A stretch of DNA of 64,000 bases, from positions 1-64,000 of the forward strand of contig JAISCR010000104.1 of assembly GCA_031265435.1 (NCBI GenBank). Direction: 5' to 3'. Source of the stretch: Treponema sp. (GTDB lineage Bacteria; Spirochaetota; Spirochaetia; Treponematales; Breznakiellaceae). This document shows positions 353 to 32,285 of the stretch, one piece after another; within the stretch, counting starts at the first letter, position 1, and each line of letters starts with the position of its first letter. The notes beneath the pieces were generated by a model. The model did not search any database and was not told the origin of the DNA. It worked only from the letters and a program-made list of their open reading frames with translations. Made by a program: the position numbers and the translations under genes.

Positions 353-415
353 TTATATATTTTGGCTTTCCGCGGAAGAAAGGGAGCCTGGGCCCTTCAA
401 ACGCCGGGAGCTGCC

Positions 416-1447: not shown

Positions 1448-1508
1448 AAATTTATCTTGCATTATTTTAGGGTGAATGTACAATATATGATTATGGAATA
1501 TGATTATG

Positions 1509-1545
1509 GAAGCCTTCACAAAAACGGAAGTTTTGAGAAGGCTTC
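1509..1545. terminator. Strong stem-loop after the first URO-D gene
   Basis: GAAGCCTTC (1509-1517) is perfectly complementary to GAAGGCTTC (1537-1545), and the inner CAAAAC/GTTTTG arms extend the stem over a GGAA loop. No U-run follows. It may therefore be a processing or attenuation element between the URO-D gene and the transporter genes rather than a classical terminator. Confidence 0.45.
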
Positions 1546-1603
1546 GAAATCTGTGTAAATGAAGCCGTATAGCTTTATTATAGTAATCTTAAGGGGATGA
1601 AGT

Positions 1604-2608
1604 ATGAAAAACAAAGTTTTCGTGATGGCGATCGTATTGTTGATTCTGACGGTGCCGGTGTCGTTTGTCGCGGCAAGAGGCGCACAGGCCGGGAGCGGCG
1701 AAAAAACTGTCGCCGGCATTGTGTTTCAGGAAGACCAGTTCATGAAGCTCTTGTCGCTCGGCTATGCCGATGCGGCCAGAGAAGCGGGTTTCCGCATTTT
1801 GCAGGCAAACACCAACAACGACCAGGCGCGCGAGGCGGAACTCATCAACACCTATGTTGACCAGAAAGTTGCCGGTATCGCCATTGCCCCGCTCAGTGCG
1901 GACTCTTCCGTTGCCACGCTCAGGAGAGCGTCCGATGCCGGCGTCAGGATTGCCGTCACCAATATCAACTTATCCAACGCGCCTTTCATCGTGGGCGGTT
2001 ATACTTCTGACGACAAAAACCTTGGCAGTACCGTTGGCGCGGCGGCAGCCGAGTTTATCAGAACCAGACTGGGCGGCAAAGCGAAAATTGCGATCCTCGC
2101 CTTCTATACGCTCCTGCCCGCCCAAGCGGCAGCCCGTGTAGACGGTTTCAAGGAAGCGATTCTAAAGGTTAATCCCGATGTTCAGTTTTTGGATCCGCAA
2201 GAAGCGTGGCTGCAGGATGTGGCCGTGCAGAAGGCGGGTGACCTCCTTACCGCGAATCCCGACATCGACATTATCTACGGCGCAAACGACGGCGGTACCA
2301 TCGGCTCCGTGATGGCGGTAAAGAACGCCGGACGCGCCGGCAGGACCTTCGTCTTCGGCATCGACACGGGCGACCAGCAGATCGCCATGCTCCGTGACAG
2401 CGACAATGTGTTGCAGGCGGTTACGGGGCAGGATCCCTACTCTCAGGGCTACAATGCCATGAAGGTGCTGGCCGATGCCATCAACGGCAGAGACGTGAGC
2501 GGAACGCAGGGCAAGACCGTTATCGTCGACGGCCTCCTCGTCAGCCGCAGCAACCCGGCCGGTATCGATGAGTTTGAAAAAGAATTGGCGGCAAAGCTGG
2601 CGCGGTAG
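1604..2608 (+). CDS. Sugar ABC transporter substrate-binding protein, RbsB type
   Basis: This 334-residue exported protein has a signal peptide (Lys-rich start, hydrophobic stretch about residues 5-22, cleavage near VAA-RG) followed by a type-1 periplasmic-binding fold. The region GQDPYSQGYNAMKVL near the C-terminus and the internal 'IDIIYGANDGG' segment are typical of the ribose/galactose-binding group. GGGGATGAAGT supplies a ribosome binding site. It precedes an RbsA-like ATPase and an RbsC-like permease, so it delivers ligand to that importer. The ligand cannot be read from the sequence. The flanking URO-D proteins make an ordinary sugar less certain than usual. Confidence 0.88.
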   Translation: MKNKVFVMAIVLLILTVPVSFVAARGAQAGSGEKTVAGIVFQEDQFMKLLSLGYADAAREAGFRILQANTNNDQAREAELINTYVDQKVAGIAIAPLSADSSVATLRRASDAGVRIAVTNINLSNAPFIVGGYTSDDKNLGSTVGAAAAEFIRTRLGGKAKIAILAFYTLLPAQAAARVDGFKEAILKVNPDVQFLDPQEAWLQDVAVQKAGDLLTANPDIDIIYGANDGGTIGSVMAVKNAGRAGRTFVFGIDTGDQQIAMLRDSDNVLQAVTGQDPYSQGYNAMKVLADAINGRDVSGTQGKTVIVDGLLVSRSNPAGIDEFEKELAAKLAR

Positions 2609-2631
2609 TTCTGTCCAAACATTAGGAAGAA

Positions 2632-2710
2632 TCAACCGCAGATAGCACGGACAAAGAAAAGAGATGAAGATCGACAGTTTTCGGTGTTTTTCTGTGTGGT
2701 CTGTGGTTGA
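2632..2710. promoter_or_regulatory. Imperfect inverted repeat between binding protein and ATPase
   Basis: A TCAACC-CAGA-CAC arm at 2632-2651 is matched by its imperfect reverse complement at 2691-2710 (GTG-TCTG-GGTTGA). It lies right after the binding-protein stop, where a stem would shield the upstream mRNA and raise binding-protein levels over membrane components. The rest of the 211-bp gap shows no open frame. Confidence 0.4.
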
Positions 2711-2819
2711 ATTCTTTAATGATCTATCTGATTATTTAAACGAATCAGCCTATTAGTCCCTAATGAACTACCTGGAAAGCCGGGTATTACATCCGCGTTT
2801 TCCAAGAAAGGTGTACTCA

Positions 2820-4301
2820 ATGAGTGTGTTGCGGGCAGAGAATATAACGAAGATGTATCCGGGAACCGTGGCGCTGGATGCGGTGTCGCTTTCGTTTGAG
2901 AGTGGCAAGGTACACGCGCTCGTGGGCAAAAACGGGTCGGGCAAATCCACGCTGGTAAAGATTGTTTCCGGAGCTGAGCAGGCGACGGATGGCGGGGTTT
3001 TCCTGGATGACAAAAAACTCAGTTTTAAAAGCCCTATGGACGCCTTTGACAGCGGTATCGCCACGGTGTACCAGGAACTGTCCCTCGTGCAGGGGATGAC
3101 GGCGGCGGAAAACATCCTGATTGGACGACTGCCGGAAAAGAATGGCTTTATCGACTGGAAGACAACGTACAAAAAGGCGGAGACGCTGATTCGGGAACTT
3201 GGTGTTGATATCGCGCCGGATGCCTATATTTACGAACTTTCCGTGTGGCAATGCCAAATGCTGGAAATTGTCAAGGCGGCAAGCTACAACCCCAAGGTCC
3301 TGCTCCTCGACGAACCTACATCGGCGCTGGCGCAGAACGAAGTGGCGTCTCTTTTTAAAATGGTACGCCTTCTTAAAAAGAAAGACGTGATCGTTATTTA
3401 CATTACCCACAAACTGCACGAACTTTGGGAAATTGCCGATACCTGCACGGTTCTTCGTGACGGCAAATATATCGGCAGCGTCGAGATGGCGTCGGGAACT
3501 CACAAAGAAGTGCTGGGGATGATGTTTGGTGACCTGGAAATTAAGCGCCGTCCTGCCGACCTCCGTGTGGAAGACGAAGTGGTGCTTTCGGTAAAGGGCC
3601 TGTCGCGTAAGCCGCACTTTGAAAATATATCTTTCGATCTGCGCCGCGGCGAGGTACTCGGTATCGCCGGTATGCTGGGCGCCGGCCGTACCGAGTTACT
3701 GCGGGCACTGTTCGGCGCGGACCGTTCCGACAGCGGGAGCCTTATCTTTAACGGGCGGCGGGTAGACAAGCCCACGCCGGAAAAGATGCGTGATGCCGGT
3801 GTGGCGCTGACTCCGGAGGACAGAAAGCGTCAGGGCCTCAACCTGCTTGGCTCAATCAAGGACAACCTTTGTTACGCCAGTCTGCCGCTCCTCGCCGACG
3901 GCTATTTTGTTAACCGAAAACGCGAGGACGAGTTTGCCAACCGGCAGATAACAGGGCTGGAGATTAAGACGGCGTCCAGCCTCGATCCGATGACGAGTCT
4001 TTCCGGCGGCAACCAGCAAAAAGTGGTGGTGGGCAATTGGTTGAACATTAGCCCAAAGGTGATGCTGTTCGACGAGCCGTCGCGCGGTATCGACGTGAAC
4101 GCCAAGCAGCAGATTTTTCAAATCATCTGGGAGCAATCGCGCAAGGGTATTTCGAGTATCATGGTTTCTTCGGAACTTGAAGAACTGCTCGAAGTGTGTC
4201 ACCGTATTTTAATTATGCGCGCCGGCCGCATTGTTGATGAGGTGCGTCCGGAGAGTGTTACAATAGAAGAACTGTATTCATTATGTATGGGGGCCGCGTA
4301 A
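2820..4301 (+). CDS. Sugar ABC transporter ATP-binding protein, RbsA/MglA type (double ABC domain)
   Basis: This 493-residue protein has two fused ABC domains. Domain 1 has a canonical Walker A, GKNGSGKST (36-44), and a Walker B with LLLDEPTSAL (161-170). Its signature motif is eroded to LSVWQCQ (about 140-146). Domain 2 has the usual degenerate Walker A of this family (GAGRT, about 287-291), an intact LSGGNQQ (394-400) and LFDEP (416-420). The length matches RbsA/MglA. ATG 2820 has an AAAGG site upstream and starts directly at the conserved LRAENITKMYPG. The earlier in-frame ATG at 2763 adds unconserved residues. It energises the adjacent permease and ends 3 bp before it. Confidence 0.92.
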   Translation: MSVLRAENITKMYPGTVALDAVSLSFESGKVHALVGKNGSGKSTLVKIVSGAEQATDGGVFLDDKKLSFKSPMDAFDSGIATVYQELSLVQGMTAAENILIGRLPEKNGFIDWKTTYKKAETLIRELGVDIAPDAYIYELSVWQCQMLEIVKAASYNPKVLLLDEPTSALAQNEVASLFKMVRLLKKKDVIVIYITHKLHELWEIADTCTVLRDGKYIGSVEMASGTHKEVLGMMFGDLEIKRRPADLRVEDEVVLSVKGLSRKPHFENISFDLRRGEVLGIAGMLGAGRTELLRALFGADRSDSGSLIFNGRRVDKPTPEKMRDAGVALTPEDRKRQGLNLLGSIKDNLCYASLPLLADGYFVNRKREDEFANRQITGLEIKTASSLDPMTSLSGGNQQKVVVGNWLNISPKVMLFDEPSRGIDVNAKQQIFQIIWEQSRKGISSIMVSSELEELLEVCHRILIMRAGRIVDEVRPESVTIEELYSLCMGAA

Positions 4302-4304
4302 AAA

Positions 4305-5297
4305 ATGGGTGACAAAAACAATTTTGGGAAACTGCTTTCCCGGCAGACAATAAACAAGCATATGCTTGAGGTGATACTCATCCTGTTGATACTGGTAATG
4401 TCGGTAACAACCTACGGTTTTTTTACCGTGGGCAATCTATTGAACATTCTGCGGAATATGTCGTTTCAGGGTTGTATTGCCTTTGGGATGACACTGGTCA
4501 TTATTTCCGGCGAGATTGACCTTTCCATCGGTTCTACCGTAGCGCTTTCCGGCGTGATTACGGCGCTCGTAAGCGGCGGTTTGGCCAGGGCGGGGATTAT
4601 GCCGATGGAGATTGCCGTTGTGTTAGGGATGCTGCTGTCCATCATCGTCTGCGCGCTGTTCGGTGCGTTTAACGGCTGGCTCTTAACCAGGTTTAGAATG
4701 CCGAGCTTCATCATCACCCTGGCGATGATGAATGTGATGTACGGCATTACCGCCATTATCTCCCATGGTTTCCCGGTAGTAACCCTGCCCGGGTGGTACA
4801 ACGTGATTGGCGCGGGACGCATCGGCGGCATCATCCCCATACCGGCGCTGGTACTGGTGGTGGTGTTCATCTTTAACTTCATCATTCTAAACTACACCAA
4901 GACCGGGCGCTCGGTATACGCCGCGGGTGGCAACGCGGACGCGGCGCGTCTTTCCGGAATCAATGTTGCCAAAGTTAAAATGTTCGTGATGATTAACGTG
5001 CAGATTTGCGCGGCACTCGCCGGCATTATGGTTTCCAGCCAGGTGATGAGCGGATCCTCCACCTTCGGCAGAGGCTGGGAGATGACGGCCATTTCTTCGG
5101 TTATTATTGGCGGGGCGAGTCTTTCAGGCGGTATAGGACGGGTGTCGCGTACCTTCGTAGGCCTCATATTCCTCGGTGTCATCATCAACGGCATGACGCT
5201 GCTCAACGTCAACGAGTACGCGCAGTATGTGGTACGGGGTATGCTTATTTTGTTAGCCGTGCTTATTAACACCGTACAGTCCCGGCGGAAATCCTGA
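4305..5297 (+). CDS. Sugar ABC transporter permease, RbsC type
   Basis: This 330-residue inner-membrane protein has about eight to ten hydrophobic segments. It carries the family-typical IISGEIDLSIGSTVALSGV region near residue 65 and the conserved ARLSGINVAKVKMFVM cytoplasmic loop, which contacts the ATPase (the EAA-like region of RbsC). It follows the ATPase by 3 bp, so the two are almost certainly translated from one mRNA. Together with the genes at 1604 and 2820 it forms a complete CUT2-type importer. Confidence 0.92.
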   Translation: MGDKNNFGKLLSRQTINKHMLEVILILLILVMSVTTYGFFTVGNLLNILRNMSFQGCIAFGMTLVIISGEIDLSIGSTVALSGVITALVSGGLARAGIMPMEIAVVLGMLLSIIVCALFGAFNGWLLTRFRMPSFIITLAMMNVMYGITAIISHGFPVVTLPGWYNVIGAGRIGGIIPIPALVLVVVFIFNFIILNYTKTGRSVYAAGGNADAARLSGINVAKVKMFVMINVQICAALAGIMVSSQVMSGSSTFGRGWEMTAISSVIIGGASLSGGIGRVSRTFVGLIFLGVIINGMTLLNVNEYAQYVVRGMLILLAVLINTVQSRRKS

Positions 5298-5354
5298 ACC
5301 GGTCTGGAAACCGGCGTTTATTCGCATTGAGGAAAAATCAGGAGAGAGCCGTTA

Positions 5355-6407
5355 ATGAACGATTACAACCGAATAGTAGACGCCATAGGGAACAAGATGA
5401 CGGAATGGGTACCGCTCTATGACCACATTGTGGCGCCCAATGTAATAGAAGACATTGCAGGCGGAAAATTTTCGGATTTAATCAATGGGGATGATGCCGA
5501 TATACATGAATATTTTAAAAAATACAACCGTTTCTTCGAAAAAGTTGGATATGACGCCATCCCCTTTGAGTGTATTATAGCAGGCTGTCTGCCCGGAAAC
5601 ATGGCTCTCTACGGACACGAGCCCGGGGCCATTCATACCATGGATGATTTTAAAAAATATCCCTGGGAGGAGATCCCCGGTTATTTTAAAAAGAAGTACT
5701 ATCCGCTGTTCCGGGCTTTTGCGGCGAATCTGCCCCCCGGAATGAAGGGGATGGGAGGACCGGGAAACGGCGTCTTTGAATGTGTTGAGGATATAACGGG
5801 GTATCAGAATTTATGCCTTATCAAGTATGATGATGAAGAACTATTCCGTATGCTTTTTGAAAAAATGGGTATTGTCATAGAAAAGATATGGAAAGATTTT
5901 TTGGAACATTTTGCGGACGCCTATTGTATCATGCGGTTTGGGGATGATTTGGGATACCAAACCAATACTCTGTTCCCTCCCGATGATATACGCGGCAATA
6001 TCTTTCCGGTTTATAAAAAAATAATCGATATGATTCATGGAGCGGGGAAACCTTTTTTGCTGCATTGCTGCGGCAAGATATTCAGTGTTATGGATGAGTT
6101 GATTGAGCTGGGGATAGACGCGAAACATTCCAATGAGGATCTGATAGCCCCGTTTTCTTTCTGGGTCGATACCTATGGAAAACGCATAGCTCTTTTTGGG
6201 GGCATTGATACCGATAATCTGGTCCGCCTTGATGAAAAACAAATTGCCGAATTAACAAAAGATGTCTGTTCATATACAAGGGGGCGCTGCGGTTTTGCCC
6301 TGGGGTCAGGCAATTCCATCACGGAATACGTGCCCGCCTCCAAATATATGGCGATGAACCGGACGGTCAGGGAATTCAGGGGGGAAACGGATTTTTTCCG
6401 CCTTTAA
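5355..6407 (+). CDS. Second URO-D superfamily protein
   Basis: A protein of 350 residues, related to but clearly divergent from the protein at 416. It has the superfamily's FLLHCCGKIFSVMDELIELGIDAKH segment with the Cys-Cys metal/corrinoid-associated region, then a GGIDTDNLVRL segment and a C-terminal FALGSGNSITEYVPASKY. That HCCG is intact here, while the first protein has HSDG at the same place, suggests that the two copies have different roles. AGGAGA precedes the ATG. It follows the permease by 57 bp and probably belongs to the same operon. Candidate activities are methyl transfer to a corrinoid or a decarboxylation. No corrinoid protein is encoded nearby. Confidence 0.75.
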   Translation: MNDYNRIVDAIGNKMTEWVPLYDHIVAPNVIEDIAGGKFSDLINGDDADIHEYFKKYNRFFEKVGYDAIPFECIIAGCLPGNMALYGHEPGAIHTMDDFKKYPWEEIPGYFKKKYYPLFRAFAANLPPGMKGMGGPGNGVFECVEDITGYQNLCLIKYDDEELFRMLFEKMGIVIEKIWKDFLEHFADAYCIMRFGDDLGYQTNTLFPPDDIRGNIFPVYKKIIDMIHGAGKPFLLHCCGKIFSVMDELIELGIDAKHSNEDLIAPFSFWVDTYGKRIALFGGIDTDNLVRLDEKQIAELTKDVCSYTRGRCGFALGSGNSITEYVPASKYMAMNRTVREFRGETDFFRL

Positions 6408-10590: not shown

Positions 10591-11354
10591 ACCTGATCCT
10601 GTTTGAGGAGCATGAACTCGGGAAGGCCCTTTCCCGGCGGGACGAAAGAACCGTACACCTCCTCAAGGTGCTGCACAGGAAAACCGGCGACAGTTTTGAC
10701 GCGGGCCTTCTGGGAGGGATGCGGGGTCAGGGCCGTATCGAAAAGATAAACATTGACGGCTCAATCATCGTATCCCTCAAACTGGACGAGGCCGCCCCGG
10801 AACGCCTTCCCCTGCGGATGGCGGTAGGGTTCCCCAGGCCCATACAACTCAAACGCCTCCTCCGGGATCTTTCCAGCCTGGGAATCGGCGCGGTAGATCT
10901 TCTGGAAACGGAACTGGGAGAAAAAAGTTACCGGGATACAAAGCTGCTTAAAAACGGCGGAGCCCGCGCCGCCTTTATCGAAGGGGCCGTACAGTCCCGG
11001 GATACCAGCATTCCCGAATTGGCTGTCTACGGCAGCCTTGCCGAATGGCTTGAGGCGAGACCCTGGGACAGGCAGGGGAATACAGGAAAGCTTCTTTCCG
11101 TGCGTACCGTGCCTCTTCTGGCGGCCGCGGACAATGTAAGGCCGGAAGGCGCCATGGCCCGGCTTTCCCCGGTACGGCGGCCCGTGGTAGTGGCCGTGGG
11201 AAGCGAGCGGGGCTGGTCGGACACGGAACGGGACAGGTTTGAAACCGCGGGATTTCTGCGGCTTTCCCTCGGGCCGCGTGCGCTCCGCACGGAAACCGCC
11301 TGTGTGGCAGCCGCAATTATTGCCATGGAAAAAATCGGAGCACTGGAGGATTGA
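10587..11354 (+). CDS. rsmE: 16S rRNA (uracil-1498-N3)-methyltransferase RsmE
   Basis: 255 residues with the RsmE plan: an N-terminal PUA-like RNA-binding lobe (about 1-70) and a SPOUT methyltransferase lobe ending in VAVGSERGWSDTERDRF and LRLSLGPRALRTETA, the deep-knot motifs that bind S-adenosylmethionine. It methylates U1498 in the ribosomal decoding region. AAGGGA lies 8 bp upstream of the ATG. It is transcribed divergently from the D-aminoacylase gene, and the next gene starts right at its stop codon. Confidence 0.9.
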   Translation: MNLILFEEHELGKALSRRDERTVHLLKVLHRKTGDSFDAGLLGGMRGQGRIEKINIDGSIIVSLKLDEAAPERLPLRMAVGFPRPIQLKRLLRDLSSLGIGAVDLLETELGEKSYRDTKLLKNGGARAAFIEGAVQSRDTSIPELAVYGSLAEWLEARPWDRQGNTGKLLSVRTVPLLAAADNVRPEGAMARLSPVRRPVVVAVGSERGWSDTERDRFETAGFLRLSLGPRALRTETACVAAAIIAMEKIGALED

Positions 11355-12158
11355 ATGAATCAGGATCAGGTAAAACAAAAATTGCTTTCCATTGAGGACG
11401 CCCCGCTGGAATTTTCCCTTGTCTTTTCCGGCAAGCAGAGCAAGAAGGTCAACGGCCTTTACAAGCCGGATTCCCGCGAGATCATCATCCACAACAGAAA
11501 TTTTGACAGTAGTACTGCCGCGGGAGCAGGCCTCCTTCTCTACACCGCCATTCATGAATACGCCCACCATCTGCATGCCTGCTCGCACGGAGGGAAGCTG
11601 CCGGGCAGAGCCCATACATCCGAATTCTGGGCGATCTTTCACGGGCTCCTCGAAAAGGCGGAAAAGAAAGGGATCTATGAGGATGTCTTTTCGATCTCCG
11701 CGGAACTTACGGCGCTCACCGAAAAAATCAGAAACAACTGCCTTGCCGGAAACGGGAGCCTTGTCAAGGAACTGGGGAAACAGCTCCTCAGGGCAAGTGA
11801 AATTTGCCGGGAAATCGGCGCCCGTTTTGAAGACTACGTCGACCGGGTACTCCGTATCCCCCGGCAGGCCGCGACCATGGCAATAAAAATACATGAATAC
11901 GATCTGAAGCCCGAAACCGGCGCGGACAATATGCGTTTCCTTGCGGGCATCAGAAACGACGAAGACCGGGCCGCCGCGGAAGAAGCCCTCATCAAAGGCA
12001 AAAGTCCGGACACGGTAAAGACGGCCCTGAAATCCGGGCCCGCCAAAACAATCGACCCGAGGGAAAACCTTGAAAGGGAAAAACTCCGCCTTGAGCGGAC
12101 AATCGCCTCCCTCAGCAAGCGGCTTGAAGAGGTAAACGCGGAGCTTGGGGAAAGGTGA
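11355..12158 (+). CDS. Zinc-metalloprotease-like protein (HEYAH) with C-terminal coiled coil
   Basis: 267 residues. HEYAHH at 67-72 matches the HExxH zinc-binding site, and a following HTSEFW offers a third ligand, as in SprT-like and other minimal zincins. Residues about 230-265 are charged and heptad-like (coiled coil). No signal peptide is seen, so the protein is cytoplasmic. The ATG directly follows the rsmE stop codon, indicating one operon. I do not recognise a named family with certainty; a DNA-protein-crosslink or housekeeping protease role would be only a guess. Confidence 0.65.
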   Translation: MNQDQVKQKLLSIEDAPLEFSLVFSGKQSKKVNGLYKPDSREIIIHNRNFDSSTAAGAGLLLYTAIHEYAHHLHACSHGGKLPGRAHTSEFWAIFHGLLEKAEKKGIYEDVFSISAELTALTEKIRNNCLAGNGSLVKELGKQLLRASEICREIGARFEDYVDRVLRIPRQAATMAIKIHEYDLKPETGADNMRFLAGIRNDEDRAAAEEALIKGKSPDTVKTALKSGPAKTIDPRENLEREKLRLERTIASLSKRLEEVNAELGER

Positions 12159-15680: not shown

Positions 15681-16460
15681 TCAAGTTAACGGAACCTCAC
15701 TACACTCACCCTGCTGCACCTTGAAGACTTCTACTTTATTTCTCAGGAGGAGTTCTTCCGCTTGTTCGGGAATAGCCTCATCGGTATACACGGCGGATAC
15801 ATCTTCCGTGCGAATCAGACCGACCACACCCTGCTGATAAAATTTTTCGGATTCGGTAAGCACAAGAATCTGCCGGGCCTGTTCGGCCAGATCCTGTACC
15901 GTCTGGGCCCGGAGGTGATCGTTGCTGGTAAAGCCGAAACCGGGAGAAAAGCCGTCGGTGCCGATAAAATACTTGTCCGAAAAGAAAACCTCTCCGCATT
16001 TGCGGGTCATGGGGCCCACCATCACCTGGGATTCACTCTGGTAATAGCCTCCCAAAAGGATAATCTTGCCGGTGGAAGCAAAACGGAGATGATTCGCAAT
16101 AAAGGCCGAATTGGTTACTATTGTTACATCCCGTTTACTGTTTACCAGTTCCTCCGCAAGAAGCGTACAGCAGGAACCGGACTCAATCATCACCGTTTCG
16201 CCTTCTTCCACACTTGCCGCCGCCAGACGGGCAAGACGCTGCTTTGTTTCATAGTGGGTTGCCATGCGCCTTCCTACATCGTCTATACCGTCAATGCAGG
16301 CATAGCCGTGCTCCCGCCGGATGAGTCCCCGTTCTTCCAGAGAATCCAAATCTTTACGCACTGTAACCTGTGAAACCTGCAGCATATTTGCAAGTACCGT
16401 AACTTCCATACGCAGGTTCCGGGTTAAAGCCTCAAGAATCTTGTTATGTCTGTTCGTCAT
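15681..16460 (-). CDS. DeoR-family transcriptional regulator
   Basis: 259 residues. The N-terminal DeoR winged helix-turn-helix (residues 5-55, with VSQVTVRKDLDSLEERGLIRREHG) is followed by a DeoRC sugar-phosphate-sensing domain (ESGSCCTLLAEEL, FIGTDGFSPGFGFTSNDH). Such proteins usually repress a sugar-catabolic operon until a phosphorylated intermediate binds. It sits between the lpl-type importer and the 2-hydroxyacid dehydrogenase and is preceded by its own promoter-like sequence, so it may control both. Confidence 0.88.
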   Translation of the reverse strand: MTNRHNKILEALTRNLRMEVTVLANMLQVSQVTVRKDLDSLEERGLIRREHGYACIDGIDDVGRRMATHYETKQRLARLAAASVEEGETVMIESGSCCTLLAEELVNSKRDVTIVTNSAFIANHLRFASTGKIILLGGYYQSESQVMVGPMTRKCGEVFFSDKYFIGTDGFSPGFGFTSNDHLRAQTVQDLAEQARQILVLTESEKFYQQGVVGLIRTEDVSAVYTDEAIPEQAEELLLRNKVEVFKVQQGECSEVPLT

Positions 16461-16757: not shown

Positions 16758-17663
16758 CTATTCCTTCACGCCGCCCACATTGAGGCCTACCACAAAGTAG
16801 CGCTGCATGAAGGGGTAAACCACGAGAATGGGGAGGGCGGCTACAACGGTTACCGCGGCGCGGATGCTCACCGGGGTTACCATGCCGGCGGTACTCTGCA
16901 TGGACATGGAACCCACGTCTCCCGCGCTCTTCGCCTGGCTCTGGCTGGACTGGATATACTCCATCAGTTTGTACTGAAGCGTATGGAGCCTTGACTCGCC
17001 TGAGTTGTAGATGAGGGTATCGAACCACGCGTTCCAGGAATCCACCGCCACGAAGAGGGCGATTGTCGCCAGTACCGGCAGGCACAGGGGCAGAATGATG
17101 CGGATGAAGATCGGGAAGTCCCCGCAGCCGTCTATCTTGGCGGATTCGATGATGCTTTCAGGAAGGCTTTTCATGTAGGTGCGGATCACCACAAAGTTAA
17201 AGGCATTAACGATGCCCGGCACAATGTACACAAAAAAACTGTTGGTAAGGTGGAGGCTTCTCATAAGAAAATAATTCGGAATGAGTCCCGCGTTTACGTA
17301 CATTGACAGAATAAGTACCATGGTAAAGGGTTTGCGGAGCACAAATTCCCTGCGGGAAAGGACAAAGGCTACCATTGATGTAAAAAATACATTTACAACA
17401 GTGTTTATCACTGTCCGCGCTACGGAAATAAAGAACGCGTTATAAATAGTACCGGTGGCAAAAACAATCCTGTAATTCTGCAGGGAAAATTTACGGGGCC
17501 AGAATGTAATGCCGCCCCGGAGGGTATCGGTTGCCTGATTCAGGGAAACCACAATGGTGTTCCAGAAAGGATAGAGGGTACATACGATAATCAAAACCAT
17601 AACAAAGGTATTTATAGTTTGAAAAACAGTATTTTCTATTTTGGATAATGTCCGGACTTTCAT
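16758..17663 (-). CDS. Carbohydrate ABC transporter permease, LplC/YtcP type
   Basis: 301 residues, six predicted transmembrane helices. The ABC permease EAA loop reads ESAKIDGCGDFPIFIRIILPLCLP. The C-terminus ends in PFMQRYFVVGLNVGGVKE, the conserved ending of LplC-like proteins ('G...GavKG'). Its ATG shares one base with the stop codon of the preceding permease, so the two are coupled. It forms the membrane channel with the permease at 17663. No ATPase is encoded nearby, so a shared MsmX-like ATPase elsewhere is expected. Confidence 0.9.
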   Translation of the reverse strand: MKVRTLSKIENTVFQTINTFVMVLIIVCTLYPFWNTIVVSLNQATDTLRGGITFWPRKFSLQNYRIVFATGTIYNAFFISVARTVINTVVNVFFTSMVAFVLSRREFVLRKPFTMVLILSMYVNAGLIPNYFLMRSLHLTNSFFVYIVPGIVNAFNFVVIRTYMKSLPESIIESAKIDGCGDFPIFIRIILPLCLPVLATIALFVAVDSWNAWFDTLIYNSGESRLHTLQYKLMEYIQSSQSQAKSAGDVGSMSMQSTAGMVTPVSIRAAVTVVAALPILVVYPFMQRYFVVGLNVGGVKE

Positions 17664-18613
17664 TATATCAAACGCTCCTCTCCGGCCCGCCTTGCGATCC
17701 AGTTGGCAATAAAAATCAGGGTAACATTGACCAGGTTCTTGAACATCCCCGCGGCGGTAGCCAGGGAGAAGTTGTTATTGCGGAAACCGAAGACCAGTAC
17801 AAAGACATCAATGGTGTCGGACACATCCTGGATAAGCCCGTTCCGCAGGAGATACTGGAGTTCAAAACCGGCGTTCATAATATTGCCGATGCTCATAATC
17901 ATCATGATGATGATGGTAGGCTTTATTCCCGGCAGGGTGATATGCCACATCTTGTGGTAACGGTTACAGCCGTCGATCTCGGCGGCTTCGTAAAGGGTAG
18001 GATCGATACCCACAATGGCCGCCAGGTATATAATCGTATTCCAGCCCACCTCTTTCCATACATAGGTGGCGCCCACGATACCCCAGAAGTATTTGGGGAT
18101 GCCCAGCCATAGCAGGGGTTCCTTGATAAGGCGCAGAGCCATGAGGACTTCGTTGATCGCCCCCGAATCCGGGGATAACATATTGGATACGAGGCCCGTT
18201 ACAATGACCCAGGAAAGAAAGTGGGGAAGGTACGAGATGGTCTGAACGACCCGTTTGAAAAATACCTTTCTTAGTTCGTTGAGGAGCAGGGCAAAGGAGA
18301 TGGCCGTAATATAACCCAATGTCATGTTGATAAGGCTCATGCACACCGAGTTACGGATGGTTCGCAGGAATACCTGATCCCGGAAAAGGAAGATGAACCA
18401 GCGGAAGCCTGCCCATTCCTGATTGAAGAAGGTTCGGGCGGGCCTGAAATTCTGGAACGCCATTGTCCAGCCCCAGAGGGGAATGTAAGAAAAAAGAATG
18501 ACATAAAGGACAAGGGGCAGGGACATGAAGACAAGCTGCCTTTGGAGAACCAGTTTCCGGAAAAAAGTTTTCTCCCCGTGTATCTGTTTCTCCGCAGCCT
18601 TCATCATGTCCAC
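17663..18613 (-). CDS. Carbohydrate ABC transporter permease, LplB type
   Basis: 316 residues, six predicted transmembrane helices. FQNFRPARTFFNQEWAGFRWF is the LplB-type periplasmic signature (compare 'F.ny.p..gi..s.WvGl.nF'), and the EAA loop is YEAAEIDGCNRYHKMWHITLPGI. The gene lies between the binding protein and the LplC-like permease in one minus-strand operon. This type of importer takes up oligosaccharides such as those released from polymers. Confidence 0.9.
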   Translation of the reverse strand: MDMMKAAEKQIHGEKTFFRKLVLQRQLVFMSLPLVLYVILFSYIPLWGWTMAFQNFRPARTFFNQEWAGFRWFIFLFRDQVFLRTIRNSVCMSLINMTLGYITAISFALLLNELRKVFFKRVVQTISYLPHFLSWVIVTGLVSNMLSPDSGAINEVLMALRLIKEPLLWLGIPKYFWGIVGATYVWKEVGWNTIIYLAAIVGIDPTLYEAAEIDGCNRYHKMWHITLPGIKPTIIIMMIMSIGNIMNAGFELQYLLRNGLIQDVSDTIDVFVLVFGFRNNNFSLATAAGMFKNLVNVTLIFIANWIARRAGEERLI

Positions 18614-18674: not shown

Positions 18675-20330
18675 CTATTTACCGCCCCAGTCCTTGATCC
18701 GCTGGTTGAGCTGACTCTGCATATAGGCCTCGTACTGGGCCATGCCGTCGGCCTTCATCTGGTTCACATACGCGGCCCACTGGGTTTCAAACTGAGCGGG
18801 CGCGCAGGTGATCACCTGAGGCAGCATCTTCTTCATGGTTTCGGTAGCCTTCGCCATGGCCATCTGGGCTTCCGATCCATCGGGAGGATTGGGCATGCTC
18901 CAGGTGGGGAACCACAGGGTGTTGGGCGAAGGATTCTTGTCCATCAGTTCGTTGGCGCTGTTTACGCCATACGCGGCAAAGAGTTCCTTGTCTTCGGGCC
19001 TCAGCATCGCTTCCCTTTCGGGATAGTACCAGGAAAGGTCGGTGGGATACCCGTCTTTGAAGGAGCCTTCCCACTTGGGGAACACATCCCGCATCAGGAG
19101 ATTGGTGTTGGCAACCTGCCACGCATCGTTCTCCCAGTTGGCCCGCTGTTCCGCGGTTCTGTAGGGCTTCCTGCCTGAATCGTACTGCCAGTCCTGGCCT
19201 TCGATGCCCCAGCTTGCGGTGCGCTGGAATTCTTCACTCATATACGCGTTGATAAAGCGCATGATACGGGCGGGATCTTTTGCCTTGATGCTGATGCCGC
19301 CGCCGCGTCCCAGGTTGGGAATGGGGAGGTTCCGGTAGCGGGGCTTAATGCTCTTGTCGAATACAATGGGCAGACCCGCAAAGCTGCGATTGTAACGTCC
19401 CGTATCCCGCAGGGCATAATCGGCCTGGTTGAACTGCCAGTACTGGTCATGCATGCCGAGCACCCGGCCGGAAGAGAGTTTTGCCAGATACTGATCGTAG
19501 TTATCCACGAAGGCCGTCCTGTCGATATAACCCTGGGCATTGAGTTCGTTGAGTTTCCTGAACCAGCGTTTGGAAAGATCCTGGGTAAAGAAGTTTTCAT
19601 ACTTGTAGGTTCTGGGATCGACCGTGCCGTTCCCCTCGTTGGGGTAACCTGCCAGGAAGTTCGGAGGATTCCAGAGGCAGAAGGCATGCCAGTCGTAGGT
19701 AAGGATGGTGAAGGGGATGGTTGCCGCTCCGTCAATGGTGGGATGTCTCTTCGCGTAGTTAATGAGAAGATCGAAATACTCATCCATGGTAGTAATTGTG
19801 GGATACCCGGCTTCCTTGAGGACTTCTTTCTGCACCCAGAGCGCGGAATCGTTGTAAATCGGCTGTTGATACTGACCGTGAACGATACCGTAGTTGATCA
19901 GATAGTAGATGTGACCATCGCTAGGCCATTTAGCCTTTTCCCAGTTGCCGGAATCCTTGAGGTGCCATTCGACATTGGGGGCTTCCTTTACTATGAGGTC
20001 TTCAAGGGGAATCATGGCGCCCGCGTCGATGAAGGCCGTTTCATTAAGTTCAATGATATCCGGATAATCGCCGGAAGCGATCATGACGCCCCGTTTCTGA
20101 TCCCGGTCGCCGACCAGAATGTCCCATTTGATGGTGACATTGAGCTTTTCCTTCATCAGCCTGAAGAATTTGTTGTCCGCCGGGGGCTGCTGCCGCTGGG
20201 CCTGGGTGAATACCGAAATTTCAATCGGGTAATTGGGATCGCTTGAGGCTGCCCTCTGATCGTTTCTGCCGCCGGCAAAGGCCAATGCGGCAAGACAGAG
20301 GAGCGTCAACACGACAATGATTTTCTTCAT
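18675..20330 (-). CDS. Extracellular solute-binding protein, LplA type
   Basis: 551 residues with a signal peptide (residues 1-19, cleavage near AFA-GG) and the large LplA-like binding fold. The WYYPEREAMLRPEDKEL and KDPARIMRFINAYMSEEFQRTASWGIEG segments are typical of this long class of oligosaccharide-binding proteins. ATG 20330 is preceded by CAGGAGGAAACTT; the frame's earlier start has no binding site. It lies downstream of the sensor kinase gene on the same strand, with 150 bp between them, and begins the importer operon. Confidence 0.88.
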   Translation of the reverse strand: MKKIIVVLTLLCLAALAFAGGRNDQRAASSDPNYPIEISVFTQAQRQQPPADNKFFRLMKEKLNVTIKWDILVGDRDQKRGVMIASGDYPDIIELNETAFIDAGAMIPLEDLIVKEAPNVEWHLKDSGNWEKAKWPSDGHIYYLINYGIVHGQYQQPIYNDSALWVQKEVLKEAGYPTITTMDEYFDLLINYAKRHPTIDGAATIPFTILTYDWHAFCLWNPPNFLAGYPNEGNGTVDPRTYKYENFFTQDLSKRWFRKLNELNAQGYIDRTAFVDNYDQYLAKLSSGRVLGMHDQYWQFNQADYALRDTGRYNRSFAGLPIVFDKSIKPRYRNLPIPNLGRGGGISIKAKDPARIMRFINAYMSEEFQRTASWGIEGQDWQYDSGRKPYRTAEQRANWENDAWQVANTNLLMRDVFPKWEGSFKDGYPTDLSWYYPEREAMLRPEDKELFAAYGVNSANELMDKNPSPNTLWFPTWSMPNPPDGSEAQMAMAKATETMKKMLPQVITCAPAQFETQWAAYVNQMKADGMAQYEAYMQSQLNQRIKDWGGK

Positions 20331-20480
20331 AAGTTTCCTCCTGTAGAAATAGAAAAATAATTTTCGGCATCTTATGAACACTCAAAAGACACCCGAACCT
20401 AATTTTATCATGGGCTTTGACGGGAAGGTATCAGGCGTTTTCCCTATTAAGTGCCTGTCCGCAAAGCCGGTTACTTTACT

Positions 20481-22583
20481 TCAGTTTTTGGGCCCGGCAA
20501 ACATAAGCGCAAGGGGCATGGTAATTTCCACTGCCGTGGAACCCTTCCGGGAACGGAGACGGTATTCGGCTCCCAACTGGTGGGCTCTGTATTCCATTGA
20601 ACGGAGCCCCAGGCCTTCCCGGCCGCGCCTATGCCCTTTGCCCATTCCTTTGCCGTTGTCCCTCACCTGGAGAAGCAGAAAAGAATCTTCGGCGGACAGC
20701 TTTACCCGGACAAGTTCCGCTCCCGAATGTTTCAGCACATTCTGCAGGGCCTCCTGGATGATCCGGTAGATGTTAATCTCCTGGTTGCGGTTCAGGGGGA
20801 GAGGATCGGGCGCATCCCATGAAAGGCTGCAGCGCAGAGCTCCCTCCCGGCTGATGCTGTCGCAGAGCCCCGCAACGGCCTCCCGAAGCCCGAAGGCGTC
20901 CAGATCCATGGGAAAAGAATCGTGGGCATAACGGCGTGTACGGATCAGGGTTTCATCAATAAGTTCCGACAGTTCGGGCAGAAAAACCCCCGGCGCGTCC
21001 TGAGCGGCAAGGCTCTTGCAGAACATGGAAATTCCGGCCAGCCGCTGACAGATATCGTCATGGAGGTCGGCGCTGAAACGCCGCCGTTCAAGGTCGCTGA
21101 TCCTGAGAACCTCGGCCTCCACCGCGATACGGCGTTCCCCCTCTTCCTTGAGTTTCCGGTTTACCTCAAGAAGATCCTTTGTGCGGTAGGCCACTTCCTG
21201 TTCAAGCCTGCGGGAACGTTCCTTTTCATCATCCAGTAAACGGAGCCGTTTTACCGTATTGGCAATAAAAACAGCTCCGCCGGACATCTGGGGATACACC
21301 TGATCGGGAGCCTCGTAAAGGACAAAACCCAGGTACTCGTTCCCGGAGCGGAGATGAAAAAGACAGAGATCCTGAAACTCTTCTTTGGCTTTTAATTTTC
21401 TGAAAAAGAAGCCTGTATCCATAGCCGGAGGATTTTCCGCAAAAGAGAGATCCCTGCCCCCGGATCGCTCAAAAACCAGGTATCCTGTTTCGCCGGTGTT
21501 TTCCAGGGCATCGCCGTAGAGAATAAAGTAGAAACTCCGCACATGAAGGTTGGTTAAAAAACTCTGCAGATAGGGAATCATGACGGGAAGAGAATCGATA
21601 AGGGCCAGATTGTGTCCCAGGGAATTCACATTGAGTGAATAAATTTCCGATTTGATGATGTCATAGGGAGCGGCGCTCATGCTCATGTCCGGCAGAATTC
21701 TTTCCGTGCCCCCGCTTGCGTCTTCGGGCCTTTCCGGGCATCCGCAGGAAGAACGCAGTATCAGTGTCGATTCAACATAGATGATCCCGGGCACGGCAAT
21801 TCCCCGTATAAGATCCCGGATGGCGCGGACGGCCATGCGGCCCTGTTCCGAAAGAGGCTGACGTACCGTGGTAAGGGGAGGATTCACCAGCCGGGCCTGA
21901 CTTATATCATCAAAACCCGTTACCGGACAGTTCCGCCACCGGGGATCGGACAGGCTCTGCAGCAGTTCCTGAATACCGATGGCAATATTGTCGCTTCCGG
22001 CAACAATGCAATCCGGCCTTTCAGGATGAAGGGCAATGTGATTCCGCATTATTTCCATACCGGAAAGCTCATTGAAGATACCGCTGTATACCCTTCCCCG
22101 GAGCCCCGGAAAGGCCCGTTCCCCGTCCTTAATCGCCTTCCGGAACACATCTTCCCGGACAACGTTATCCTGATGCTTTGCCGGGCCTCCCACATAGATA
22201 AAATCCCGATAGCCGTGGGTCATGATAAGGTGTTCCATGAGGAGTTCCATGGATTCCCTGTTCTTGACAATAATTGAATGATAATCGAAGAGCCGCATAC
22301 CGATGGAGACAAAGGGAACTTGGGAGGCCATGGCCTTTAGTTCCGAAGGAATAGCAATTTCACTCTCGTCGGTAAAAACCGAAGAGAGGAGGAGTATGCC
22401 GTCTGTGGCAATGAGTTTCCAGGTGGGAATGGTTCCCGCGCCGGATGCGCTCTTCCCGTTCAGCGCTTCACCCTGAACGGAGAGCAGGCCGATACCCAGT
22501 TTGCGGGCCTCTTCCCGCACCCCCCGGTACACCGAAAGCTGGTACTCCCCATCCAGGTTGTTAAGGAACAGGGCTATACGCAT
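20481..22583 (-). CDS. Soluble histidine kinase with N-terminal LacI-type ligand-binding domain
   Basis: 700 residues, no transmembrane segment and no helix-turn-helix. Residues 1-285 form a LacI/XylR-type periplasmic-binding-like domain: MTHGYRDFIYVGG (about 121-133), GSDNIAIGIQELL (196-208), and FDDISQARLVNPPLTTVRQP ending in SSCGCPE (278-284). Residues about 300-445 are an uncharacterised middle domain, then a coiled coil (450-500), a HisKA_3 dimerisation helix with the phospho-accepting His508 in ADLHDDICQRL, and an HATPase domain (N-box about 604-620, DNGKGM 642-647, GLGLRSM). The kinase would sense a cytoplasmic sugar. Its probable partner is the divergently encoded NarL-type regulator 34 bp away, and the probable target is the downstream lpl-type importer. 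Confidence 0.88.
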   Translation of the reverse strand: MRIALFLNNLDGEYQLSVYRGVREEARKLGIGLLSVQGEALNGKSASGAGTIPTWKLIATDGILLLSSVFTDESEIAIPSELKAMASQVPFVSIGMRLFDYHSIIVKNRESMELLMEHLIMTHGYRDFIYVGGPAKHQDNVVREDVFRKAIKDGERAFPGLRGRVYSGIFNELSGMEIMRNHIALHPERPDCIVAGSDNIAIGIQELLQSLSDPRWRNCPVTGFDDISQARLVNPPLTTVRQPLSEQGRMAVRAIRDLIRGIAVPGIIYVESTLILRSSCGCPERPEDASGGTERILPDMSMSAAPYDIIKSEIYSLNVNSLGHNLALIDSLPVMIPYLQSFLTNLHVRSFYFILYGDALENTGETGYLVFERSGGRDLSFAENPPAMDTGFFFRKLKAKEEFQDLCLFHLRSGNEYLGFVLYEAPDQVYPQMSGGAVFIANTVKRLRLLDDEKERSRRLEQEVAYRTKDLLEVNRKLKEEGERRIAVEAEVLRISDLERRRFSADLHDDICQRLAGISMFCKSLAAQDAPGVFLPELSELIDETLIRTRRYAHDSFPMDLDAFGLREAVAGLCDSISREGALRCSLSWDAPDPLPLNRNQEINIYRIIQEALQNVLKHSGAELVRVKLSAEDSFLLLQVRDNGKGMGKGHRRGREGLGLRSMEYRAHQLGAEYRLRSRKGSTAVEITMPLALMFAGPKN

Positions 22584-22617
22584 TTACCTTTAACACCATA
22601 CATAGGGAAATTATACT

Positions 22618-23295
22618 ATGGTTAAACGGTTTTTGCCAAAGTATAATGAATCCATGCCTGTGGCAAAAGTCATGATCGTAGAGGATCATCCGCTCTTTAG
22701 TAAGGGTTTAAGTTCTCTTATCACCAGCCGGGGATCTTATTCCGTGGTGGGAGAGGCAAAGGACTCCGCGGAGGCCTTCAAGCTTGCCGGAGAGGAACAG
22801 CCGGATCTCGCCATTGTGGATCTCAACCTGGGAGACGAAGACGGCCTGGATCTGCTCAAAGAGCTGCACAGCCGCTTTCCGGGGATTGCGGTGCTGGTGC
22901 TTTCCATGCACGACGAACGTTACTATGCCGAACGTGTGCTCAATGCCGGCGGGCGGGGCTACATCATGAAGGCCGAAGCGGGCAATAAAGTTATGGAGGC
23001 AATTGAAACGGTTCTGGGGGGAGAGATCTACCTCAGCAAGGCCGAACAGGAGCGGCTTTCGGAATGCCTGGAGCCCGGAGGCCCCTTTGCCTCTGTAGAA
23101 AAACTTTCCGACCGGCAGCTCCAGATATTCAACCTCCTTGGGAAAGGGCTGGGTACGGTGGAGATTGCGGCAAAACTCACTCTGAGCACAAAAACCATCG
23201 ACACCCACAAAGAGCACATCAAGATCAAACTCCACTGCAACACCACCCAGGAACTCAGGCAGCTTGCCATCGAGTGGGTCAACCGTCCCGCGTAA
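22618..23295 (+). CDS. NarL/FixJ-family response regulator
   Basis: 225 residues: a receiver domain (phospho-acceptor Asp68 in LAIVDLNLGDEDG, acidic pocket VEDH) and a LuxR-type helix-turn-helix (about 161-215, KLSDRQLQIFNLLGKGLGTVEIAAKL). The ATG at 22618 has AGGGA 9 bp upstream. A second in-frame ATG at 22654 starts directly at the conserved receiver but has only a TATAAT-like sequence before it, so the start is uncertain by 12 codons. Divergent from the LacI-domain kinase, 34 bp apart, so promoters overlap and the pair is almost certainly one two-component system. Confidence 0.9.
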   Translation: MVKRFLPKYNESMPVAKVMIVEDHPLFSKGLSSLITSRGSYSVVGEAKDSAEAFKLAGEEQPDLAIVDLNLGDEDGLDLLKELHSRFPGIAVLVLSMHDERYYAERVLNAGGRGYIMKAEAGNKVMEAIETVLGGEIYLSKAEQERLSECLEPGGPFASVEKLSDRQLQIFNLLGKGLGTVEIAAKLTLSTKTIDTHKEHIKIKLHCNTTQELRQLAIEWVNRPA

Positions 23296-30224: not shown

Positions 30225-31274
30225 ATGGAGAAATCTCAGTTTGGTATAGATCCTTCGCCCATACAGAATGCTGAGCTTTTTTCGGGCCTCCTCAAGAAGG
30301 AGCGGGAATTTGTAATATCCCATTCCAGCCTGATTCAGCTCCGTAAGGGAGGAAGGCTCTTCTCCGCGGGCCAGAAGGCCGAACATTTTTACATGCTGCT
30401 GGAGGGCTCCATCCGGGTTTACCGGATCAGGGACGATGGGGATGAAGTTGAAATGGCGCGTTTTACCCCGGGAGACACGATAGGCGACTTTGACTTTGCC
30501 CGGAACGCCGCCTACGATGCCTTTGCCGTTGCCGCGGAAGATTCAAACCTCGCCATGTTTCCCGGTTACGGCCTCATGATGGACGATTTTGTGCTTGAGG
30601 AACCCCATGTCATCTCCCGCATACTCTTGAGTTCCATCGTCATGATGACCGGCCGTATCAAGTCCATCCGGCGGATACTTGTGGAAAACTTCTCCTGGGT
30701 TCAGGAACTGCACCGCCGGGCCTATGAAGACTCCGGCACAGGACTCTGGAAACAGGCTTTTCTTACCGACGAAATCAACCGGATTCTGGAAGATCCCATG
30801 ACCTTCATCATGTGCAAGCCGGATCGTTTCAAGATTCTGGTGGATTCCAGGGGGCATGCCGCGGGAGATGAGGCCATGGTACGGATCGCGATGGTGCTTA
30901 AAAAAATTGCCCGCCGTCATGGCCGGGGATGGTCGCTCCGTTTCAAGAGTAACGAAACCGGGCTCCTGATTAGCAAGTGTGATGCTTCCCAGGCGGAAAA
31001 GATAGCGGATGAACTGCATAAGTCCATTGCCTCCCTTGCTCCCGTTCCGGCGGCAAAGGACATTCCGGCTTTTCCTTTTTCCGCCACTGTTTCCTGGGCG
31101 GTATGGCCTGAGGATAATCATGTCTGGGACGATCTTTTCCAGGGTGTCTACGAGCAGCTTCTCGATAGCTGGCGCGGCGGCGGCGACACGATTATCCATT
31201 GCCGGAATATCCCGTCGAAGCCCGCCGGACAAGGTTCGGCTTTAGCTGAGCTTCCCCCCGGGAAGGAGGACTAG
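30225..31274 (+). CDS. Cyclic-nucleotide-binding-fold protein with degenerate GGDEF domain
   Basis: 349 residues: a cNMP-binding beta-barrel (about 15-130) and a GGDEF-like domain (about 185-315). The phosphate-binding cassette that normally reads GE...R-A is GDFDFARNAAYDAFAV here, with the Arg replaced, so cNMP binding is doubtful. In the second domain the catalytic GGDEF is SNETG (242-246), although the earlier RFKILVDSRGHAAGDEA helix is preserved. The protein is thus likely a non-catalytic regulator or sensor. Its stop codon abuts the ATG of the next gene, an intact relative, which suggests that the two function as a pair. Confidence 0.75.
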   Translation: MEKSQFGIDPSPIQNAELFSGLLKKEREFVISHSSLIQLRKGGRLFSAGQKAEHFYMLLEGSIRVYRIRDDGDEVEMARFTPGDTIGDFDFARNAAYDAFAVAAEDSNLAMFPGYGLMMDDFVLEEPHVISRILLSSIVMMTGRIKSIRRILVENFSWVQELHRRAYEDSGTGLWKQAFLTDEINRILEDPMTFIMCKPDRFKILVDSRGHAAGDEAMVRIAMVLKKIARRHGRGWSLRFKSNETGLLISKCDASQAEKIADELHKSIASLAPVPAAKDIPAFPFSATVSWAVWPEDNHVWDDLFQGVYEQLLDSWRGGGDTIIHCRNIPSKPAGQGSALAELPPGKED

Positions 31275-32285
31275 ATGCCGGACGGAAAAATGCCCTTATC
31301 GCCTGTTGCCGATCCGGTACTGATTAAAAGCCCCCTCTTCGTTGCCATGAGCGATCTTGAATTCAACGCGGTGGCGGCCTTTCTGGAACGGAGAAAGGTG
31401 AAGAAAGGAGCCCGGGTTTTCCGGGAGGGAGACATCGGGGAAGAGATGTTTATCCTCCTTTCCGGCTTGCTTTCGGCTTTTGTATCCCAGTCCGACGGTA
31501 CCGACCGCTGGATGTTCGACATCAAGCCCGGAGACTTCTTCGGGGAGATGAGTATCATCGCCAATGAGCCCCGTTCCGCCACCATAAGCGCCAAGATCGA
31601 TACGGAGATCATGGTTCTGCAGGGCATCGACTTCTACCGTATCGTCTTTGAACATCCCATGATCGGGCTGAAGCTGCTCCAGGCAATCGACACCGTACAG
31701 AATCAATGGCTGGATCAGACCAGTAAACACCTGGAGGATCTGATGCGCTGGGGTGAAACCGCCCGCCGCCGTGCCATTACCGATGAACTTACCGGACTTT
31801 ACAACCGCCGTTTTCTTGAAGAATCAATCAAAAACCGCTTTGAACATAGTTCCGTAAATCTCCGCAAGATGTCCCTCATGATGATGGATCTGGACAAGGT
31901 TCATGAAATCAATGATAAACACGGTACCCAGGCGGGGGATCAGGTGATCGTCACCGTAGCCGACATACTCCGTTCCATCATGCGTTCCGAAGATATCGCT
32001 TCCCGGCTTTCAGGAGACGAGTATGCGGTGCTGCTTCCCGATACGGATGCCGCCGAAGCCGCTCTTGTAGCAGAACGGATCAGAAAAGCCGTCGAGACTA
32101 AAGAGGTGATTGTTCCAAAGTCTCCCGGCGCGGCAGAAAAAATGCCCATCCACATCCGTACCAGCATCGGCATAGCCGTGGCGCCCACTCATGCCAAAAA
32201 TGTGGAAAGCCTGATCTTTGCCGCGGATTCCGCCCTCAGAAACGCCAAGGATCTGGGCCGGAACCGGGTGGTAGTCTGCTCATAG
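31275..32285 (+). CDS. cNMP-binding diguanylate cyclase
   Basis: 336 residues: a cNMP-binding domain (about 15-140) with a well-formed phosphate cassette FGEMSIIANEPRSATIS, and a GGDEF domain (about 170-335) with the active variant SGDEY (246-250) and DLDKVHEINDKHG. The product-inhibition site RxxD is present as RSED (237-240), exactly five residues before the active motif. It should make cyclic-di-GMP under the control of a cyclic nucleotide. It starts directly at the stop codon of the degenerate paralogue. Confidence 0.86.
   Translation: MPDGKMPLSPVADPVLIKSPLFVAMSDLEFNAVAAFLERRKVKKGARVFREGDIGEEMFILLSGLLSAFVSQSDGTDRWMFDIKPGDFFGEMSIIANEPRSATISAKIDTEIMVLQGIDFYRIVFEHPMIGLKLLQAIDTVQNQWLDQTSKHLEDLMRWGETARRRAITDELTGLYNRRFLEESIKNRFEHSSVNLRKMSLMMMDLDKVHEINDKHGTQAGDQVIVTVADILRSIMRSEDIASRLSGDEYAVLLPDTDAAEAALVAERIRKAVETKEVIVPKSPGAAEKMPIHIRTSIGIAVAPTHAKNVESLIFAADSALRNAKDLGRNRVVVCS

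Follow-up and report, generated by a model that had tools for sequence, protein, structure and literature searches.

Most sugar-responsive two-component systems read the outside of the cell through the membrane, and it is one-protein repressors that respond to sugars in the cytosol. Sensors of the XynDC/XuaSR type are membrane proteins that read external signals; in hybrid systems of Bacteroides (such as BT1754) a PBP1-type sensor is periplasmic, membrane-linked and coupled to a histidine kinase. XuaSR of Ruminiclostridium cellulolyticum is a xylan two-component system with an AraC-type regulator, XuaR, beside an importer similar to the one analyzed here (PMC9675976), and that paper and the references in it also cover XynDC of Geobacillus stearothermophilus, so that xylo-oligosaccharide and arabinoxylan two-component systems are both on record. 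Diguanylate cyclases with a PBP (LacI-like) domain are mentioned in a review (PMC8846402).

Here we analyze a 64,000-nucleotide stretch of a Treponema sp. genome (hereafter the window), in which a soluble histidine kinase with a LacI-type sensor lies between a NarL-type regulator and an oligosaccharide importer. The kinase shares the cytosolic PBP1 domain of LacI/GalR repressors (RbsR, CelR, PurR, LacI), including the equivalents of R197 and D274 of LacI; unlike them it has no helix-turn-helix (HTH), and instead of binding DNA it is predicted to pass the signal on via GAF to a histidine kinase core. The locus resembles XynDC and XuaSR in pairing a two-component system, here predicted to be in control, with an oligosaccharide ABC importer and, in the cluster, xylan enzymes, whereas it has a NarL-type regulator in place of the AraC-type XuaR, and a soluble LacI-type sensor; a transmembrane sensor as in YesMN, XynDC and XuaSR is absent from the window kinase and 35 homologues. 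Bacteroides hybrids likewise couple a PBP1-fold sugar sensor to a histidine kinase, but here all parts are predicted to be cytosolic. PBP diguanylate cyclases carry the same type of sensor on an enzymatic output, and the PBP1-GGDEF proteins of Spirochaetota share the cassette described below; they make c-di-GMP, whereas the window kinase is predicted to transfer phosphate to a regulator. HisKA_3 kinases of the NarX/UhpB/DesK type have the same core (H-D-x-x-x-Q) and the same class of regulator, but the window kinase has an unrelated sensor and no transmembrane helices. Each part is known; in the open-licence literature searched, we found no description of LacI-type or Peripla_BP histidine kinases, nor of this combination.

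Results

A soluble kinase that opens with a LacI-type domain

The kinase gene (window 20481-22583, minus strand) encodes a predicted soluble protein of 700 residues with the order PBP1/LacI-type sensor, GAF, helix, HisKA_3 and HATPase_c. Pfam matched Peripla_BP_3 at residues 122-280 (E = 8e-16), HisKA_3 at 499-555 (E = 9e-6; 26.5 bits against a cut-off of 24) and HATPase_c at 602-692 (E = 2.5e-11). By Pfam and alignment, the HisKA_3 domain (20919-21089, minus strand) carries the phospho-acceptor H508 in HDDICQ, and the HATPase_c domain (20508-20780, minus strand) carries N615, D642-x-G-x-G and G657/G659; the features of an HPK7 kinase, namely HisKA_3 with HDxxxQ and the N, G1 and G2 boxes of HATPase_c, are present. 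H508, D509, Q513, N615, D642, G644, G646 and G659 were invariant in an alignment of 36 sequences with identities down to ~23%, and judged by these residues the catalytic core is intact. An AlphaFold model of the kinase (pLDDT 84) showed a LacI-type core (residues 1-285), a small alpha/beta domain (301-427), a continuous helix (427-526) and the kinase core.

An in-frame TAA stands immediately 5' of the kinase ATG, which excludes an upstream HTH or signal peptide, and the start position is common to the 36 homologues; a LacI/GalR-type N-terminal HTH is accordingly absent. No 19-residue stretch of the window kinase qualified as a membrane helix (maximum Kyte-Doolittle value 1.63), nor did any in the homologues. 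Since the kinase shows neither an export nor a membrane signal, it follows that its sensor should be cytosolic and its sensing intracellular. The first-pass annotation had described a kinase of 700 residues without a transmembrane segment that opens directly at a LacI-type ligand domain, lacks the DNA-binding domain usually fused to it and ends in a HisKA_3/HATPase core with His508; it had further suggested adaptation to an intracellular sugar. The architecture was borne out, and when we looked for an upstream signal or membrane anchor, or for a degraded histidine or N-box, we saw neither.

The sensor (residues 1-285; 21729-22583, minus strand) was assigned as a LacI/RbsR-type ligand-binding domain without HTH by Pfam, PDB and fold searches: its closest PDB sequences are RbsR, a LacI ancestor and PurR, its relatives there also include CcpA and LacI, and Foldseek matched its predicted fold to LacI-family cores. 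In LacI, R197 and D274 contact the sugar. Profile alignments place R143 of the kinase on R197 and D225 on D274, and both residues are invariant in the 36 homologues; we infer that the kinase may bind a sugar through them.

The middle domain (residues 300-445), previously given as not recognised, now has an assignment: residues 301-427 (21303-21683, minus strand) form a degenerate GAF domain, from which the continuous helix (427-526) leads into the kinase core. Pfam gave no match for the window's own copy of this domain when it was searched alone; the best-ranked structure matches of a separate model (pLDDT 89) were GAF domains (TM about 0.55), including that of KdpD, and GAF_2 was matched in 4 of the 36 homologues. 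The GAF sequence is weakly conserved among them.

A two-clade family paired with a NarL-type regulator

Homologues were gathered from relatives of the window's genome and by a scan of GTDB species genomes. Full-length kinases were found at ~40 loci, all in Spirochaetota and many in Treponema from termites, rumen and other guts, whereas matches in other phyla were confined to the kinase core. Among 296 evenly drawn Spirochaetota genomes there were 17 whole-profile matches; 195 Verrucomicrobiota and 198 Bacteroidota genomes yielded no full-length match above the cut-off, and none was seen in plasmids (searches run without a positive control). The PBP1-GAF-HisKA_3 architecture is, on these sequences, a conserved family with two clades; of the phyla covered (by direct sampling Spirochaetota, Verrucomicrobiota and Bacteroidota), Spirochaetota alone showed it. 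In clade A, which includes the window kinase, the regulator gene is usually divergent; clade B kinases have a longer linker and the regulator gene immediately downstream on the same strand, often with sugar ABC permeases nearby. The regulator gene adjoins the kinase at nearly every locus, with four kinase loci lacking a regulator nearby.

In the window the NarL/FixJ-type response regulator (22654-23295, plus strand; annotatable from 22618) was assigned by Pfam (Response_reg, 1.2e-24; GerE, 3.8e-12) and promoter geometry. Its receiver is intact, with D23, D68, S96 and K118 invariant, and a LuxR-type HTH is present. Because the ATG at 22618 falls within the conserved promoter box described below and a -10 hexamer lies at 22642-22647, translation probably starts at the ATG at 22654, from a nearly leaderless mRNA. 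The proposed pairing of the kinase with a divergent NarL-type regulator therefore stood, but not the 34-bp gap between them, which is likely to be about 70 bp as counted from the ATG at 22654.

A box with fixed geometry precedes the regulator and the importer

An alignment of six relatives revealed that a block upstream of the importer, TAGGGAAAACnCCTGATA, was kept while its flanks had diverged; a block akin to it lies upstream of the regulator gene. In the regulator promoter of the window, the 18-bp box TAGGGAAATTATACTATG (22603-22620, plus strand) is followed 21 nt later by the -10 hexamer TATAAT (22642-22647, plus strand). Upstream of the importer operon, the box TAGGGAAAACGCCTGATA (20429-20446, minus strand) is followed, again after 21 nt, by the hexamer TAAAAT (20402-20407, minus strand). 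The arrangement of box, exactly 21 nt and TAnnnT before regulator and importer recurs with kinases down to about 45-70% identity, and across 18 non-redundant sites (one of which had been chosen using the hexamer as a criterion) TAnnnT lay at exactly 21 nt in 10, compared with 0-3 at every other distance. Activators that contact RNA polymerase sit near -42, and the predicted center of the box would lie near this position. The box also contains TATAAT on the opposite strand (22610-22615, minus strand), a candidate -10 element of the divergent kinase gene; because of this overlap, an occupied box could block or dampen the kinase promoter.

Two sister species carry short insertions, hairpin-like by eye, between kinase start and box (11220-11500 of locus L029 and 4850-5030 of locus L046), which leave the distance from box to regulator unchanged. 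No recognizable box was present in the regulator promoters of several rumen Treponema loci, or in those of G006 and L050.

The importer operon comprises an extracellular solute-binding protein (18675-20330, minus strand; the open reading frame opens at 20381 and the likely ATG is at 20330), whose orthologue matches SBP_bac_1, and two permeases with BPD_transp_1 matches (17663-18613 and 16758-17663, both minus strand), which we take to be LplB-like and YtcP-like, respectively. Adjacency and the common promoter box suggest that the regulator controls this importer. The importer had earlier been noted to lie downstream of the kinase; this holds, and beyond proximity, a common promoter element with fixed geometry stands before both regulator and importer. 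A gene for a DeoR-type regulator (nearest model YciT; window 15681-16460) lies downstream of the importer and is kept in close relatives.

In relatives the box precedes xylan genes

We trained a matrix on the window's genus, G022 and L047 alone and applied it to the other homologous loci. Its eight best matches, at independent loci, each stood before a gene for a regulator, an importer or a GH67 enzyme. At a loose cut-off there were 11 motif matches compared with a mean of 5 for column-permuted matrices; since this difference is not significant, we used only the top matches and their positions as evidence, and not the plain count. A wider scan placed the box before GH10 xylanase genes of two genera, with the 21-nt spacing in each case, before GH67 at two loci (spacing 22), and also before one gene for a GH3 beta-xylosidase and one for a polysaccharide deacetylase.

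Outside the homologous loci the box was sought by pattern rather than matrix. Over 59 relatives the genome-wide pattern gave 34 listed matches, compared with 7 for a reversed control. Exact matches occurred only in genomes with a clade-A kinase, a distribution that is partly circular because some of these sites had built the pattern. Sites outside the pattern-building set included two in G007, one on an unlinked contig, where the box immediately precedes the orthologous importer, and one that precedes another importer, and one in G019 followed by a cluster of deacetylase and GH8 genes. In G032, which has a clade-B kinase, a site with one mismatch precedes a GH3 gene nearest to the Xyl3A beta-xylosidase model. 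G040, a genome from the same taxonomic order with no strong full-length kinase match, contains three one-mismatch matches to box plus hexamer, by chance or through another regulator.

Because the box precedes GH10, GH67, GH3 and deacetylase-GH8 genes in relatives, the signal is likely a cytosolic sugar derived from xylan. The genome of the window has two GH10 genes, which lie elsewhere, and the box stands before none of its xylanase genes, so the link to xylan there rests on orthology; a genome-wide search of it found no sites above chance beyond the two of the window, and its regulon therefore looks local. A pullulanase-like gene comes after the orthologous importer of G007, and a GH77 gene adjoins the regulator of rumen Treponema; because of these neighbors, ligand specificity may differ between clades. 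Judged by neighbors and box targets in several genera, xylan is the best-supported source of the sugar; the case is weaker in the window's genus, where the box stands before importer and regulator only, and in clades whose neighbors are GH77 or pullulanase-like.

One sensor cassette on several outputs

The sensor and GAF profiles also matched proteins of 640-1260 residues with GGDEF, HisKA_2, AraC and HisKA-HATPase-receiver-AraC outputs, the GAF profile matching some but not all of the members with a GGDEF output. The cassette thus occurs with five outputs: a HisKA_3 kinase with a NarL partner, a HisKA_2-type kinase, a kinase-receiver-AraC hybrid, a diguanylate cyclase and an AraC factor. A tree built from 47 sensor domains, with LacI repressors from the same and related genomes among them, placed the cassette proteins in one group apart from the repressors (support 99/98) and the clade B kinases with the hybrids, not with clade A (96/94). 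Because the tree separates the two, the sensor is, as far as sequence can tell, an old shared cytosolic PBP1-GAF cassette and not a local repressor that has shed its HTH. The first-pass annotation had seen a repressor-type sensor turned into a kinase input; the LacI-type domain upholds this, but the tree (99/98) speaks against a fresh conversion of a local repressor, and a recent birth of the sensor in that way found no support.

Large PBP1-GAF proteins of 1110-1258 residues are encoded at L127 (992-4765, plus), L128 (1697-5374, minus), L130 (1010-4630, plus), L131 (2090-5419, minus) and L142 (3991-7371, plus). Of those scanned with Pfam, L127 has the order PBP1-GAF-HisKA-HATPase-receiver-AraC, L130 has HisKA and AraC, and L131 has AraC. 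These hybrids resemble the hybrid systems of Bacteroides, but with the LacI-type domain first. Several PBP1-GGDEF proteins occur together in single Treponema genomes (L133-L138, L144), with at least three in G051 by Pfam; their number suggests a wiring of sugar to c-di-GMP.

Discussion

Proposed mechanism and alternatives

Architecture, intact catalytic residues, conserved pairing, the box, its geometry to the promoter and the target genes can be read directly in the DNA; from them we infer the identity of the ligand, the sign of the response, the phosphotransfer and the binding of the regulator to the box. We think there is a good chance that the locus encodes a fully cytosolic two-component system which passes a xylan sugar signal from the LacI-type domain through H508 and D68 to the box, in a positive-feedback loop of uptake. 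Oligosaccharides would be imported, and cytosolic enzymes would release a small sugar; this product of xylan, most likely xylose, xylobiose or a short xylo-oligosaccharide, would bind the LacI-type domain. The ligand-induced change would travel by way of the GAF domain and the long helix, reach the HisKA_3 core and there alter autophosphorylation of H508, from which phosphate would pass to D68 of the NarL-type regulator. The phosphorylated regulator would then bind the 18-bp inverted-repeat box near -42 and activate its own gene together with the importer operon, giving positive feedback on sugar uptake, and in relatives also genes for xylanase, xylosidase and glucuronidase. The regulator is thus likely a local activator with positive feedback.

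With the same architecture, the pocket might instead bind a different sugar or a metabolite that is not a sugar, or GAF might be the true sensor and PBP1 only regulatory. GAF domains in other proteins bind small molecules, and the enzyme neighbors differ by clade, with GH77 in rumen Treponema and a pullulanase-like gene after the importer of G007. We nevertheless hold this to be unlikely, as the equivalents of the LacI sugar contacts (R143, D225) are invariant in all 36 homologues and the GAF domain is weakly conserved, and the enzymes linked to the box in several genomes are xylan enzymes. Rather less probable still is that the box is bound by some other regulator, such as a xylan-gene repressor of the LacI, ROK or DeoR type, and that the two-component system has other targets: repressors, too, typically recognize inverted repeats, and a DeoR-type gene does lie downstream of the importer, but in several lineages the box takes an activator position before the regulator gene itself, and exact sites across the 59 genomes were seen only with a clade-A kinase (in part circularly).

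Two further readings we rejected as highly improbable. An exported or membrane-anchored sensor that reads external sugar might be expected from the PBP1 fold, which periplasmic binding proteins share, and from sugar kinases of Bacteroides that have PBP1 sensors outside the membrane; the stop codon before the start, the fixed start in 36 homologues and the absence of a signal peptide or membrane helix argue against it, and the nearest structures are cytosolic repressors. Equally hard to believe is a degenerate, non-functional fusion, for although the HisKA_3 score of 26.5 bits barely exceeds the Pfam cut-off of 24, no catalytic motif varies among the 36 homologues from across Spirochaetota, where the family has been maintained with its regulator. 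Cytosolic sensing of a xylan sugar by an active kinase is the reading that we prefer.

Taking the cassette as a whole, we lean toward an undescribed signaling superfamily of Spirochaetota, in which one LacI-like and GAF cassette serves at least five outputs and the kinase branch runs xylan uptake via an 18-bp activator box. The family would merge the two ways of reading sugars, with a repressor-type pocket driving predicted phosphotransfer, and offers a natural test case for the exchange of parts between one-component sensors and two-component outputs. Because PBP1-GAF is found on five outputs in one phylum, output swapping on a single type of sensor can be compared directly, and the cassette may serve as a modular sensor part. 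Soluble at full length, the kinase should be biochemically tractable, and importer and xylan enzymes make up a concrete predicted regulon for poorly culturable gut spirochaetes.

Other genes in the window

By eye, from translations, window 362-6407 contains a ribose-type sugar importer (substrate-binding protein, two-domain ATPase and permease), flanked by two uroporphyrinogen-decarboxylase-like proteins, which is an odd pairing. Likewise judged by eye from translations, two adjacent genes at window 30225-32285 each seem to encode a cyclic-nucleotide-binding domain together with a GGDEF-like domain.
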